Shown here one piece after another: positions 48,838 to 53,819 of a DNA stretch of 64,000 bases. The DNA is from Microbacteriaceae bacterium (GTDB lineage Bacteria; Actinomycetota; Actinomycetes; Actinomycetales; Microbacteriaceae): assembly GCA_024639845.1 (NCBI GenBank), contig JAHEGG010000004.1:62001-126000 (forward strand). Reading direction: 5' to 3'. Position 1 is the stretch's first letter, and each line of letters starts with the position of its first letter. The notes below the pieces were generated by a model. That model was not told the DNA's origin. It saw nothing but the letters and a program-made list of their open reading frames with translations, and searched no databases. Made by a program: the position numbers and the translations under genes.

Positions 48838-51693
48838 TTAGCTGCAACCGCTGGTCGATCCACAGCCTTCGCAGACGTGGCATGAACCCGATGGTCGCAT
48901 CTTGATTCCACAGTTGAAGCAGAGTGGAGCGTCAGACTCCTTGCCCTGTAGCAACTCGAAGAGTTCGGCCGAGGAGTGTGCTTCACGCTGCTCTGGCTTG
49001 GCTTCGATGGTTACCGGCTGAGGTGCTGCAGCAGCAACTTCGACCACTGCTTCGATCTCTTCGGCTGCAACTGCTGCTGCCGAGGTGGTGCCGAGCTCAA
49101 CCACAGGTGGGTAACCACCAGCGGCGTCGAGGGCTGCCGAGCGCTCTGCTGCGGTGTTGATGCCGAGGGCCGAGCGGGTTTCGTATGGCAGGTAGTCCAA
49201 AGCCAGGCGACGGAAGATGTAGTCCATCAGCGACTTGGCCATGCGAATGTCGGCGTCGTCGGTGAGACCAGCTGGTTCGAAGTTCACGTTGGTGAACTTC
49301 TTGACATAGGTCTCTAGTGGCACGCCGTACTGCAGACCGATCGAAACAGCGATCGAGAAGGCATCCATCACGCCGGCCAGGGTCGAACCCTGCTTGCCGA
49401 GCTTCAGGAATACCTCGCCGAGGCCGCCGTCTGGGTAGGAGGACGCGGTCATGTAACCCTCTGCGCCACCCACGGTGAACGAAGTGGTCGACGACGGGCG
49501 CGACTTTGGCAGACGCTTGCGAACTGGGTGAGCCAGGTCGGCAACCGGAGCAGCGGCAGCAGCCGGCTTCTCCTCGGTCTTGGCCTTGGCGTCGCTCAGC
49601 GGCTGTCCAACCTTGCAGTTGTCGCGGTAGATGGCTAGAGCCTTGAGGCCGAGCTTCCAGCCCTGGAAGTAGACATCTGCGATCTCATCCTTGGTGGCGG
49701 TTTCAGGCATGTTCACGGTCTTCGAGATTGCTCCCGAGAGGAACGGCTGAACGGCTGCCATCATTCGAACGTGACCCATTGGCTCGATCGCACGGATACC
49801 GACTGCGGTATCGAAGATTGCGTAGTGCTCCTGCTTTAGACCAGGTGCGTCAACAACGTGGCCGTGCTGGCTGATGTGGTCGACGATTGCCTCGATGGTC
49901 TCTTGTGAGTAGCCAAGACGGTGCAGCGCGAACGGGATGGTCTGGTTGACGATCTGCATCGAACCACCGGTCGACAGCTTCTTGTATTTGACCAGTGAGA
50001 AGTCAGGCTCGATACCGGTGGTGTCACAGTCCATCATGAATCCAATGGTTCCGGTTGGAGCAAGCAGCGAAATCTGCGAGTTTCTCCATCCGTTGACTGC
50101 ACCAATCTGGCTGTTGAGCGCCCACTGCTCGGTGGCGGCGACCAGAACGTCGGCGTCGATGTCGCTTACTGGTGAAAGCTGGGCGTTTGCAGCCTTGTGC
50201 TTCTCCATTACGCGGTCGTGACCGGCCTTGTTCTTGGGGTAACCGGCGTAGGTGCCGACAACACCAGAGAGTTCAGCCGAACGGCGGTAGGTTGCAGCCG
50301 ACATCAGCGAGGTAATCGACGCTGCGAGAGCGAAGCCTTCCTTGCTGTCGTAAGGCACACCGATGGCCATAAGTAGCGCACCAAGGTTTGCGTATCCGAT
50401 ACCCAGCTGACGGAAGTTGCGAGTGGTCTCGCCGATGGCTTCGGTTGGGAAGTCGGCGAACGAGATCGAGATGTCCATCGCGGTGATGATCAACTCGGAT
50501 GCCTTCACGAACTTCTCGCTGTCGAACGAGCCGTCTGGGTTCAGGAACTTCAGAAGGTTGAGCGAGGCGAGGTTGCAAGAGGAGTTATCGAGGTGCATGT
50601 ACTCGGAACATGGGTTCGAAGCGGTAATGCGACCAGACTCTGGAGTGGTGTGCCAGTCGTTGATGATGTCGTCGTACTGGATGCCTGGGTCGGCGCACTC
50701 CCAAGCCGCAATCGCAATCTTGTCGAACAGTTCACGCGCGTCGACTTCTTCGATGACTTCACCGGTGGTGCGGGCACGAAGACCGAACGTGGTTCCGTTT
50801 TCGACGGCCTCCATGAATTCGCGGTTTACGCGAACCGAGTTGTTGGCGTTCTGGTACTGAACCGAGTTGATGTCCTTGCCACCGAGCTCCATGTCGTAGC
50901 CAGCGTCACGGAGAACGCGGATCTTCTGCTCTTCGCGCGACTTGGTCTCGATGAACTCTTCGATGTCTGGGTGGTCAACGTCAAGCACGACCATCTTGGC
51001 GGCACGGCGGGTTGCTCCACCAGACTTGATGGTTCCTGCCGAGGCGTCAGCACCGCGCATGAACGAAACTGGGCCAGAGGCCGAGCCACCGCTCGACTTG
51101 AGCAGCTCCTTCGACGAACGGATGCGCGAAAGGTTCAGGCCTGCACCGGAACCACCCTTGAAGATCATTCCTTCTTCGCGGTACCAGTTCAGAATCGACT
51201 CCATCGAGTCATCGACCGAAAGGATGAAGCAAGCCGAGACCTGCTGTGGGCTCTTGGTGCCAACGTTGAACCACACTGGCGAGTTGAACGAGAAGACCTG
51301 GTTCAGGAGCATGTAGGTCAACTCGTGCTCGAAAATCGTTGCGTCGTCTTCGCTGGCGAAGTAACCGTGATCGCGACCAGCCTGGGTGTAGGTGAGCACA
51401 ACCCGGTCGATTAGCTGACGGAGGCTGAACTCGCGCTCTGGGGTGCCGACGGCACCGCGGAAGTACTTGGTGGTGACAATGGTCGAAGCGTTGATGCTCC
51501 AGAATTCTGGGAACTCTACGCCGCGCTGCTCGAAGATCACCTCTCCGTTCTTCCAGTTGGTCTGTACAACGTCGCGGTACTCCCAGTTGACCTGGTCGTA
51601 AGGGTGTACACCTTCGCTGGTGTAAATGCGCTCGATCGTTAGACCCGCTCCGGTTCCGGCGGTGTTGCCGGTGAATGCCGATGTATCGGTCAC
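48838..51693 (-). CDS. nrdJ: Adenosylcobalamin-dependent (class II) ribonucleotide reductase NrdJ
   Basis: The protein has 951 residues from GTG 51693, with AAAGG upstream. Key stretches are GMIFKGGSGAGLNLSRIRSS, NPCSEYMHLDNSSCNLASL (active-site NPCSE), SLLAPTGTIGFMMDCDTTGIEPD and YLPYETRSALGI. The C-terminus has a long Ala/Glu linker and a zinc-ribbon tail CFNCGIKM ... CHVCEGCG. It makes all four deoxynucleotides with B12 and no oxygen requirement. It follows nrdR by 35 bp in one transcript. Confidence 0.97.
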   Translation of the reverse strand: MTDTSAFTGNTAGTGAGLTIERIYTSEGVHPYDQVNWEYRDVVQTNWKNGEVIFEQRGVEFPEFWSINASTIVTTKYFRGAVGTPEREFSLRQLIDRVVLTYTQAGRDHGYFASEDDATIFEHELTYMLLNQVFSFNSPVWFNVGTKSPQQVSACFILSVDDSMESILNWYREEGMIFKGGSGAGLNLSRIRSSKELLKSSGGSASGPVSFMRGADASAGTIKSGGATRRAAKMVVLDVDHPDIEEFIETKSREEQKIRVLRDAGYDMELGGKDINSVQYQNANNSVRVNREFMEAVENGTTFGLRARTTGEVIEEVDARELFDKIAIAAWECADPGIQYDDIINDWHTTPESGRITASNPCSEYMHLDNSSCNLASLNLLKFLNPDGSFDSEKFVKASELIITAMDISISFADFPTEAIGETTRNFRQLGIGYANLGALLMAIGVPYDSKEGFALAASITSLMSAATYRRSAELSGVVGTYAGYPKNKAGHDRVMEKHKAANAQLSPVSDIDADVLVAATEQWALNSQIGAVNGWRNSQISLLAPTGTIGFMMDCDTTGIEPDFSLVKYKKLSTGGSMQIVNQTIPFALHRLGYSQETIEAIVDHISQHGHVVDAPGLKQEHYAIFDTAVGIRAIEPMGHVRMMAAVQPFLSGAISKTVNMPETATKDEIADVYFQGWKLGLKALAIYRDNCKVGQPLSDAKAKTEEKPAAAAAPVADLAHPVRKRLPKSRPSSTTSFTVGGAEGYMTASSYPDGGLGEVFLKLGKQGSTLAGVMDAFSIAVSIGLQYGVPLETYVKKFTNVNFEPAGLTDDADIRMAKSLMDYIFRRLALDYLPYETRSALGINTAAERSAALDAAGGYPPVVELGTTSAAAVAAEEIEAVVEVAAAAPQPVTIEAKPEQREAHSSAELFELLQGKESDAPLCFNCGIKMRPSGSCHVCEGCGSTSGCS

Positions 51694-51728
51694 GGTATTA
51701 CCTTTCTTATTTCGTTTCTACTCAGGTT

Positions 51729-52232
51729 TTAACGCTGAGAAAGTTCGGATATTCCTTCGCGCTTCGAGTCGAGTTCGCTTGTGGCATCTCTAGTCGAGCG
51801 CAAAACATTTATGGCCGCTTCGAAGTCATCGAGGGTCTCCCAACCCTGATAAACACTGGCGAATCGCATGAATGCGACTTCATCCAGCTTTCTTAGCGGT
51901 TCGAGAATGGCCAGACCAATCTCATTTGCTTCTATCTGTGACGATCCGGTGGTGCGAACGGTTTCTTCTACCGTCTGAGCTAGCAGGGCTAGATCGGCCT
52001 CACTGACCGGTCTTCCCTGGCAAGCCTTGCGCACGCCGTTTACGATTTTGTGTCGGCTGAAGGGTTCGATTACTCCGCTTCGCTTGACCACGGTCAAGCT
52101 GGCGGTTTCGGTGGTGCTGAACCGCTTTCCACACTCAGGGCATTCGCGACGTCGTCTGATTGAGACGCCATCCTCGGATGTTCTGGAGTCGATTACTCGG
52201 GAATCGGCGTGACGACAGAACGGACAGTGCAT
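51729..52232 (-). CDS. nrdR: Transcriptional repressor NrdR
   Basis: The protein has 167 residues from ATG 52232 (MHCPFC). GGAGG lies 9 nt upstream, so a longer frame starting at 52262 is not used. The N-terminal zinc ribbon has CPFC and CPEC pairs and RRRREC; the ATP-cone follows ([20 protein letters not shown]). NrdR senses ATP/dATP and represses ribonucleotide reductase genes by binding NrdR boxes. A pair of such boxes lies in its own promoter. Confidence 0.96.
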
Positions 52233-52265
52233 GTCGAAAGCCTCCTCCCTGAGTAAATGCAAAAG

Positions 52266-52284
52266 TTATCCACAGTTTTCCACA
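52266..52284 (+). promoter_or_regulatory. Two tandem DnaA boxes in the nrdR leader
   Basis: TTATCCACA (52266-52274, the perfect high-affinity form) and TTTTCCACA (52276-52284) both fit TTWTNCACA. They are separated by one base, so their spacing is one helical turn on the same face. They lie 34-52 bp upstream of the nrdR ATG, downstream of the predicted transcription start. Confidence 0.75.
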
Positions 52285-52288
52285 GGGG

Positions 52289-52335
52289 ACACAATATCTA
52301 GACGCTTTTTGCATTGCGGTCACTATATCTTGTGG
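52289..52335. promoter_or_regulatory. Pair of NrdR boxes over the nrdR-nrdJ promoter
   Basis: Box 1 (52289-52304, ACACAATATCTAGACG) and box 2 (52320-52335, TCACTATATCTTGTGG) fit the NrdR consensus acaCwAtATaTwGtgt and are exactly 31 bp apart, three helical turns. On the minus strand -35 TTTAGA (52351-52346), an 18-bp spacer and -10 TATAGT (52327-52322) form a good promoter, with box 2 over the -10. Confidence 0.85.
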
Positions 52336-52517
52336 TCTGAAGGGGTCTAAATCAAATTCATTCGCTTTTCGGCGTGTCGCTAGTGTTTTGGCGGAATGCG
52401 GGCCGAAATCCAGTCAATCCGCGTCTCGAAAAGCACAAAAATAGATAACGAGATGGCAACAAAACCGCGGATGCTCGCGAACCACGTAAGGCCCTTGGGC
52501 CTCGGTGAACCTATTGA

Positions 52518-53819
52518 CTACTCGAACCGAGCCTGCACAGCATCCGCGTGGCCAGGCAGACCCTCGGCGCGAGCGAAAACCTGAATCTCAGACGAAATCT
52601 CAGCAAGCCCCGAATTCGAATAGTCGATTAGCTGCTGAGCGCGAAGGAATGTGTGCACGCCAAGCCCAGCTCCGAACTTGGCTTGCTGACCCGTCGGCAG
52701 TACGTGGTTGGACCCGGCGCTGTAGTCGCCGAGGCTGACCGGCGAACTTTGACCGAGGAAAATCGCACCGGCGTTTGATATGACTCGGGCATCCCCTGTT
52801 GGGTTTTGCGTGTGAAGTTCTAGGTGCTCGGTCGCGTAGTGGTTTGCGAAACTCAGTGCTGCCGCTAGGTCATCGACCAAAACGAGCGCGGACTGCACCG
52901 AATTCAAGGCTGTGGAGACGCGCGCAGCATTCTCGGTCGCGGCAACGACCGATTCGAGCTCGTGCTGCACGGCATCGACTAAATCTTCAGAATCGGTCAC
53001 CAGCACGCAAGCAGCCGCCTCGTCGTGTTCGGCCTGACTGACAAGATCGAAGGCAATCAGGCGCGGATCGGCCGAACTATCGGCCACAATCAAAATTTCG
53101 GTGGTTCCCGCTTCGCTGTCGATGCCGATGACCCCGCGAAGTGCACGCTTTGCCGCGGCAACGAAGATGTTACCCGGACCGGTGACCATTGCAACGACTT
53201 CAAGCCCAAGCGTTGGAACCCCATAGGCGAAAGCGGCCACTGCCGCCGGACCGCCGATGGCATAGACGTCTTTCACACCGAGCAGCGCTGCCGTGGCCAG
53301 CACGGTCGGATGTGGGCGTCCACCGAATTCCTTCTGACCCGGTGTGGCAATCACCAGTCGTGAAACTCCGGCCACCTGAGCGGGAACCACATTCATGATC
53401 ACGCTGCTGGGATAAACCGCCTTGCCACCTGGCACATACAAGCCGACCGAATCGACCGGCTGCCAGCGCTGGTGCACCGAAGCGCCGTTGGAAAGTTCAA
53501 CTGAAAAAGCCTGGGGAACGGATGCCTTTGAAACCCGGCGAACGCGATCGATGCTGGTTTCAATCGCTAGGCGCAAATGCGCATCGAGACAGGACAGCGC
53601 GGCTTCCAGTTCGGCCTCCGAAACCTTGAAAGGTCTGGGGTCAAAGCCATCGAACCTTTGAGCTACTTGGACCAGAGCATCCTCGCCTCGGTTTTTAACG
53701 TCGGCGAGAAGCGGTCGAATCTGCTCAACGGCGGAGTCGATGTCGAGTTCGGCTCGCGGCACTCGCGAATTTACGAGGGCGTTCGACAGCGTTAAACCGC
53801 GCAGGTCTTCGATTCTCAT
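52518..53819 (-). CDS. hisD: Histidinol dehydrogenase HisD
   Basis: The protein has 433 residues from ATG 53819, with AGAGGG upstream. VGLYVPGGKAVYPSSVIMNVVPAQVAGV and FVAAAKRAL with GPGN are the NAD region. LVSQAEHDEAAACVLVT carries Gln/His zinc ligands, and YATEHLELHT the C-terminal His and Glu. It performs the last two oxidations to histidine. It is divergent from the flavin reductase gene and is followed by the 285-bp nrd control region. Confidence 0.96.
   Translation of the reverse strand: MRIEDLRGLTLSNALVNSRVPRAELDIDSAVEQIRPLLADVKNRGEDALVQVAQRFDGFDPRPFKVSEAELEAALSCLDAHLRLAIETSIDRVRRVSKASVPQAFSVELSNGASVHQRWQPVDSVGLYVPGGKAVYPSSVIMNVVPAQVAGVSRLVIATPGQKEFGGRPHPTVLATAALLGVKDVYAIGGPAAVAAFAYGVPTLGLEVVAMVTGPGNIFVAAAKRALRGVIGIDSEAGTTEILIVADSSADPRLIAFDLVSQAEHDEAAACVLVTDSEDLVDAVQHELESVVAATENAARVSTALNSVQSALVLVDDLAAALSFANHYATEHLELHTQNPTGDARVISNAGAIFLGQSSPVSLGDYSAGSNHVLPTGQQAKFGAGLGVHTFLRAQQLIDYSNSGLAEISSEIQVFARAEGLPGHADAVQARFE

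Follow-up and report, generated by a model that had tools for sequence, protein, structure and literature searches.

Predicted DnaA boxes beside the NrdR operator of an nrdR-nrdJ operon in Microbacteriaceae and of ribonucleotide reductase promoters across the Actinomycetes

To our knowledge, the matching of dNTP supply to replication initiation has been well studied only in E. coli. In that organism DnaA binds the nrdA and nrdD promoters, as detected by ChIP-seq, and prefers paired boxes 2-3 bp apart (PMC11317965). Repression by NrdR under dATP is established for the NrdR family, as is the binding of NrdR to the nrdRJ boxes of S. coelicolor (PMC9110341). In S. venezuelae, WhiA footprints GACAC upstream of nrdR, and nrdR is upregulated in a whiA mutant (PMC3781837). 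DnaA boxes with nrdR, nrdJ, or nrdH in actinobacteria were found nowhere in the non-subscription literature searched. We present here an analysis of an nrdR-nrdJ operon in a 64-kb stretch of DNA (the window) from a Microbacteriaceae bacterium, together with the corresponding promoters of its congeners and of the class Actinomycetes.

The locus resembles E. coli nrdAB and nrdDG in that a ribonucleotide reductase (RNR) promoter carries NrdR boxes together with two closely spaced DnaA boxes (PMC11317965), those of the window being predicted. It differs in its enzyme, which is class II, whereas the E. coli enzymes are class Ia and III with boxes 2-3 bp apart; in the presence of a putatively autoregulated nrdR in the operon; and in its DnaA boxes, which lie downstream of the NrdR pair with a gap of 1 bp. 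Much of the class, again unlike E. coli, has a multi-unit phased array. With S. coelicolor nrdRJ it shares the order nrdR then nrdJ and a promoter region with two NrdR boxes separated by about three turns (PMC9110341); that paper, in contrast, does not mention DnaA, and the four loci sampled from family f34, probably Streptomycetaceae, have no DnaA array. A GACAC sequence upstream of nrdR is shared with S. venezuelae, where it is footprinted by WhiA (PMC3781837); in the window the site is predicted, the element is longer (GCGACACGCCGA) and stands at a fixed distance from NrdR box 1, and further copies in the window's genus stand at dnaB, hup, ftsR-like, mraZ, rapZ, and class I nrd promoters. 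Regulation of RNR genes by DnaA is already known from E. coli; as far as the literature searched shows, the actinobacterial array beside NrdR boxes is new in extent and arrangement.

The nrdR-nrdJ operon, its promoter, and the NrdR boxes

The intergenic region between hisD and nrdR spans positions 52233-52517 (285 bp). By direct reading, the gene strand of the control region reads ...CAGACCACAAGATATAGTGACCGCAATGCAAAAAGCGTCTAGATATTGTGTCCCCTGTGGAAAACTGTGGATAACTTTTGCATTTACTCAGGGAGGAGGCTTTCGACATG, and the order on the minus strand is GCGACACGCCGA, TTGATT, NrdR box 1, NrdR box 2, two DnaA 9-mers, a GGAGGAGG ribosome site, and the nrdR ATG. The features are as follows.

48838-51693, minus strand: nrdJ, B12-dependent class II ribonucleotide reductase (NF005122, 1538 bits; TIGR02504)
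51729-52232, minus strand: nrdR, 167 aa, ATG at 52232-52230, predicted dNTP-sensing repressor (open reading frame and TIGR00244 equivalog, E 5e-45)
52266-52274, plus strand: perfect consensus DnaA 9-mer TTATCCACA, by direct reading
52276-52284, plus strand: DnaA 9-mer TTTTCCACA, by direct reading; degenerate to AATTCCACA or ATTTCCACA in the nearest relatives
52289-52304, minus strand: NrdR box 2, TCTAGATATTGTGTCC, 31 bp downstream of box 1, called by pair score, spacing conserved
52320-52335, minus strand: NrdR box 1, CCACAAGATATAGTGA, promoter-proximal, called by pair score; CACAAGATATAG invariant in 37 of 37 congeneric promoters
52327-52332, minus strand: alternative -10 hexamer CAAGAT, overlapping NrdR box 1
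52350-52355, minus strand: likely -35 hexamer TTGATT
52369-52380, minus strand: GCGACACGCCGA, candidate WhiA site, with GACAC at 52378-52374

An initial annotation of this DNA had placed a B12-dependent RNR behind nrdR, and the family assignments bear this out (NF005122 and TIGR02504 for the enzyme, TIGR00244 for nrdR). Searching the window's genome, which is about 94% complete, with PF02867 gave a single match, nrdJ, the sole RNR large subunit found. The genome encodes a member of the NrdR family (Zn ribbon plus ATP cone) above the TIGR00244 cut-off, and its function is predicted accordingly from the family. A cobalamin riboswitch or other known RNA was sought in the leader, and there was no Rfam match within 51500-53000, so a B12-regulated leader of the riboswitch type was rejected. 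Of the species sampled in the genus, about half have nrdJ. Most Microbacteriaceae, the nearest named relatives, have nrdR and lack nrdJ; they are uninformative for the control region because, in the cases examined, their nrdR follows hisD without NrdR boxes.

The two NrdR 16-mers start at 52335 and 52304 and occupy 52335-52320 and 52304-52289, exactly the 31 bp apart that had been reported, and the pair is kept in 37 of 37 congeneric nrdRJ promoters, the window's own counted among them. The operon has a candidate NrdR operator of two palindromic boxes, with the spacing inside the 31-32 bp required of such pairs. A palindrome, GTTACAnnGnTGTAAGT, lies between the NrdR boxes in much of the class and is as conserved there as the boxes themselves (e.g., L279, L286, and L293); it is absent from the window's genus.

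For the promoter, conservation among the congeners points to TTGATT-17-CAAGAT as the likely arrangement, with a start near 52320: a TTG-type hexamer stands 17 bp before CAAGAT in 31/37, and CAAGAT is invariant (37/37), an invariance equally expected of an NrdR box. Counted from such a start, NrdR box 2 would cover roughly +17 to +32, with the DnaA boxes farther on, at roughly +37 to +55. The initial annotation had instead read TATAGT over an NrdR box as a good -10. TATAGT is present at 52327-52322, inside the promoter-proximal box, and the promoter scan pairs it with TTTAGA at 18 bp. As a conserved -10 it is doubtful next to the invariant CAAGAT and was rejected, since the hexamer at that position is TATAGT in only 8 of the 37 promoters, TATAGG in 26, and TATAGA in 3; it may still serve in the window's species alone.

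DnaA boxes in the window, the genus, and the class

The two DnaA 9-mers that had been reported one turn apart before nrdR were recovered at 52276-52284 and 52266-52274. They form a tandem with a 10-bp period and a 1-bp gap within the same intergenic region as the NrdR boxes, shortly before the nrdR ATG. Direct reading and conservation likewise upheld the main claim of the initial annotation, that NrdR and DnaA elements occur together at an nrdJ operon; its inventory was right for both box pairs and missed three things described below, namely the GACAC element and the arrays found class-wide and at class Ib promoters. The roadblock action that it had suggested for DnaA is, like any effect of DnaA here, hypothetical.

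The two 9-mers are the only matches to TTWTNCACA in the 64-kb window, where 3.0 are expected by chance. The bare count is unremarkable, and with about three matches expected in 64 kb of such composition, as a reading of these 9-mers as chance matches in AT-richer intergenic DNA would have it, the argument for DnaA boxes rests on clustering and conservation. Genome-wide statistics for the 1.4-Mb genome were taken from pattern searches. TTWTCCACANTTWTCCACA, two TTWTCCACA in tandem separated by 1 bp, is found there once. Only two pairs among the 27 TTWTCCACA sites of the genome are less than 20 bp apart; one is in the nrdRJ leader and the other in the dnaA-dnaN intergenic region, where the arrangement, TTATCCACA then TTTTCCACA, matches that at nrdRJ. 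Both 9-mers are also boxes of the dnaA-dnaN region in the congeners, and the nrdRJ leader carries predicted DnaA boxes that match the organism's own oriC consensus. The 1-bp gap falls outside the 2-3 bp of the E. coli type; gaps between boxes in the organism's own dnaA-dnaN region are 0 and 3 bp, and those of the class-wide arrays are 2-3 bp (11/12-bp period).

Lack of conservation in relatives had been named as grounds for refuting the 9-mers, and such a lack was not seen. Exact TTATCCACA is found in 14/37 congeneric nrdRJ leaders from several tree lineages, against a shuffle mean of 0.015, each time on the non-gene strand, 23-55 nt ahead of the ATG; arrays across the class, given below, add to this. 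The exact pair, on the other hand, is confined to the window, and 23/37 promoters are without the strong box, including all of a 12-species clade. Five changes are needed to explain the distribution of TTATCCACA on a tree of nrdR plus nrdJ DNA. The second box is reduced to a TCCACA core at the same 10-bp spacing in the five nearest relatives, and in other congeneric lineages a second, box-like site stands at a distance of 21 bp. What the genus conserves is thus a single strong box, and that box is frequently lost. No DnaA box stands at nrdRJ in G008, G016, and G059, three congeners that combine nrdJ with a class I RNR; they are too few to argue from. The recurrence of exact TTATCCACA largely refutes chance, the uniqueness of the tandem pair outside the dnaA region also speaks against it, and we give that reading hardly any credence.

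For the class, 168 genomes were searched for nrdRJ leaders, which were delimited by a custom NrdR-box score and scored for DnaA sites with a weight matrix built from the dnaA-dnaN DnaA boxes of the same class. Array counts leave out L164-L167, in which nrdJ has NrdR boxes and no linked nrdR. Past NrdR box 2, the leaders of 90 loci hold 152 DnaA-like sites, compared with 22.4 ± 4.4 in shuffles (maximum, 38); on the upstream side of the NrdR boxes, 14 kb contain only 19 such sites. At least two sites are present in some locus of 22/29 families, which is the scale on which these counts are to be read, loci within one family not being independent. The sites favor one strand (145:11), and 112/118 same-strand distances of up to 46 bp fall at 11-12, 21-23, 32-35, or 43-46 bp, versus 41/121 in shuffles, with the array units in helical phase with NrdR box 2. 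Because the weight matrix presupposes a DnaA motif, two model-free tests were made. Autocorrelation of leaders aligned on box 2 peaks at lags 11, 21-23, and 33-34, and de novo motif discovery returns TTGTCCACAGG with an LLR of 499, versus 103-132 for shuffled leaders. This motif is a DnaA box by its match to the oriC boxes of the class, the variants TTTCCCACA, TTGTCCCCA, and TTATCAACA included. What the computations show is that the elements are present and conserved, that the class-wide array consists of DnaA boxes, and that it keeps helical phase with the NrdR boxes. The nrdRJ leaders sampled from families f34 (6- to 10-Mb genomes), f32, and f38 (both 1.2- to 1.5-Mb genomes) have no array. 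In the window's genus the boxes and the class-wide array occupy different strands, and common descent of the two may therefore not hold.

The phased TCCACAGG units could alternatively be extra half-sites for NrdR or another factor, as the halves of the NrdR box also read CCACA and the conserved palindrome GTTACAnnGnTGTAAGT between the boxes leaves room for another factor to act. We regard this as quite improbable: TTGTCCACAGG has the T-T-purine-T 5' half typical of DnaA boxes, outside the NrdR palindrome, and the unit variants TTxCCCACA, TTxTCCCCA, and TTxTCAACA recur in oriC of the same class.

Class Ib promoters show a comparable arrangement. The 150-bp stretches just upstream of the NrdR pair in 15 Microbacteriaceae nrdHIEF promoters contain 76 DnaA-like sites where 9.3 would be expected; most share a strand, and the distances between them are multiples of roughly 10.7 bp, as far as 76 bp. 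Judged from both sets of promoters, what is common to class II and class Ib is a phased DnaA array adjoining the NrdR operator, not the side on which it lies. This bears on whether the 9-mers mainly titrate DnaA, as a small datA-like sink with little effect on nrdRJ. E. coli has DnaA clusters such as datA (PMC11317965), and same-strand box arrays resemble the oligomerization arrays of the oriC type; a sink, however, would not need to stand at class II and class Ib RNR promoters beside NrdR boxes and in helical register, and we consider titration improbable.

The GACAC element and candidate WhiA sites

Upstream of the promoter, ACACGCCGA is present in 32 of the 37 congeneric promoters (shuffle, 0.03), and in 34 of them ACACGCCG begins 42 bp ahead of NrdR box 1. 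Across the class, GACACGC lies upstream of the NrdR boxes in 54/86 loci, versus 4.2 by shuffling. WhiA is encoded in the window's genome (PF02650 match at G000:C19:40889-41137), and by analogy with S. venezuelae the GACAC site in GCGACACGCCGA is probably bound by WhiA.

In the window's genome and two complete congeners, intergenic ACACGCCGA is found at nrdRJ, class I nrd, dnaB, hup, and mraZ, as well as at an FtsR-like MerR gene and a dnaE2-type operon with a LexA-like repeat; a further copy lies next to rapZ, about 1.6 kb before whiA. The copies before the dnaE2-type operon, hup, ftsR-like, mraZ, rapZ, and class I nrd genes (L221, L229, L236, L357, L358, L360, L361, L363, L365, and L367) outline a candidate WhiA regulon in the genus, made up of genes for replication and division. 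The label FtsR-like is given by resemblance, the family search having returned MerR-type matches only, below the cut-off. FtsR was considered as the factor for ACACGCCGA and rejected, its published motif being a 25-bp AACCCTAAAGTAAAGGTTGAGGGTA repeat (PMC6683498). Searching the literature for the ACACGCCGA string returned unrelated sequence matches only.

Three further observations concern these elements. The dnaB leader (L208, G000:C5:174682-174900) has several DnaA boxes and two elements of the GGCGTGTC/ACACGCCGA type, the same combination as at nrdRJ. Some nrdHIEF promoters (L169-L189) carry GACACGC beyond the DnaA-like array. A second whiA is held on a 3.4-kb contig, G000:C6 (L230 and L231), which is probably assembly contamination.

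A proposed circuit for dNTP supply and replication initiation

We think it rather likely that the nrdR-nrdJ control region integrates NrdR, DnaA, and probably WhiA signals, with DnaA as a timing gate; binding, transcription start, and sign of regulation are what we infer from the elements above. NrdR charged with dATP plus ATP would bridge both boxes over the promoter and start region and repress when dNTPs are plentiful, and nrdR, as part of the operon, would be autoregulated. DnaA on the two 9-mers, which would fall within the leader's first 60 nt next to NrdR box 2, would tie expression to the DnaA-ATP cycle of replication initiation. The GACAC-type site upstream of the -35 would probably be occupied by WhiA. 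Bound at roughly +37 to +55, DnaA-ATP would most likely act as a timing gate that limits transcription when DnaA-ATP is high; DnaA may also compete with NrdR for box 2.

The main rival to such hindrance by DnaA is anti-repression by competition with NrdR, in which a DnaA-ATP filament would spread from the strong distal box along the phased array into box 2 and displace NrdR at initiation. In the class profile, box 2 reads TCgTCCACAgGTTGTG, and through most of the class its left half comes near the DnaA-box consensus; the array units hold helical phase with box 2. Class Ib arrays abut the NrdR boxes from upstream, so that adjacency to NrdR is the constant, not position relative to the start. 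The window's own box 2 (TCTAGATATTGTG), however, is not DnaA-like, and competition there would have to be steric; we judge relief of repression unlikely, and keep the timing gate as the preferred reading.

More broadly, and tentatively, since we rate this as possible but short of probable, the RNR promoters of two enzyme classes in most sampled Actinomycetes families would carry a DnaA-oligomer array in register with an NrdR operator. There, a DnaA-ATP filament and the dATP-NrdR tetramer would compete or cooperate as a conserved checkpoint between dNTPs and initiation, to which WhiA would add division state.

The prediction is sharp, and testing it in vitro and in relatives that can be cultured would be cheap. 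Helically phased DnaA sites next to NrdR sites across the class suggest an unrecognized link between the start of replication and precursor synthesis. If it holds, DnaA would control RNR genes far more widely than is now recognized, with a direct connection to the dNTP sensor; in the window's organism, in which nrdJ is the only RNR found, all dNTP synthesis would be under this circuit, which would be B12-dependent.
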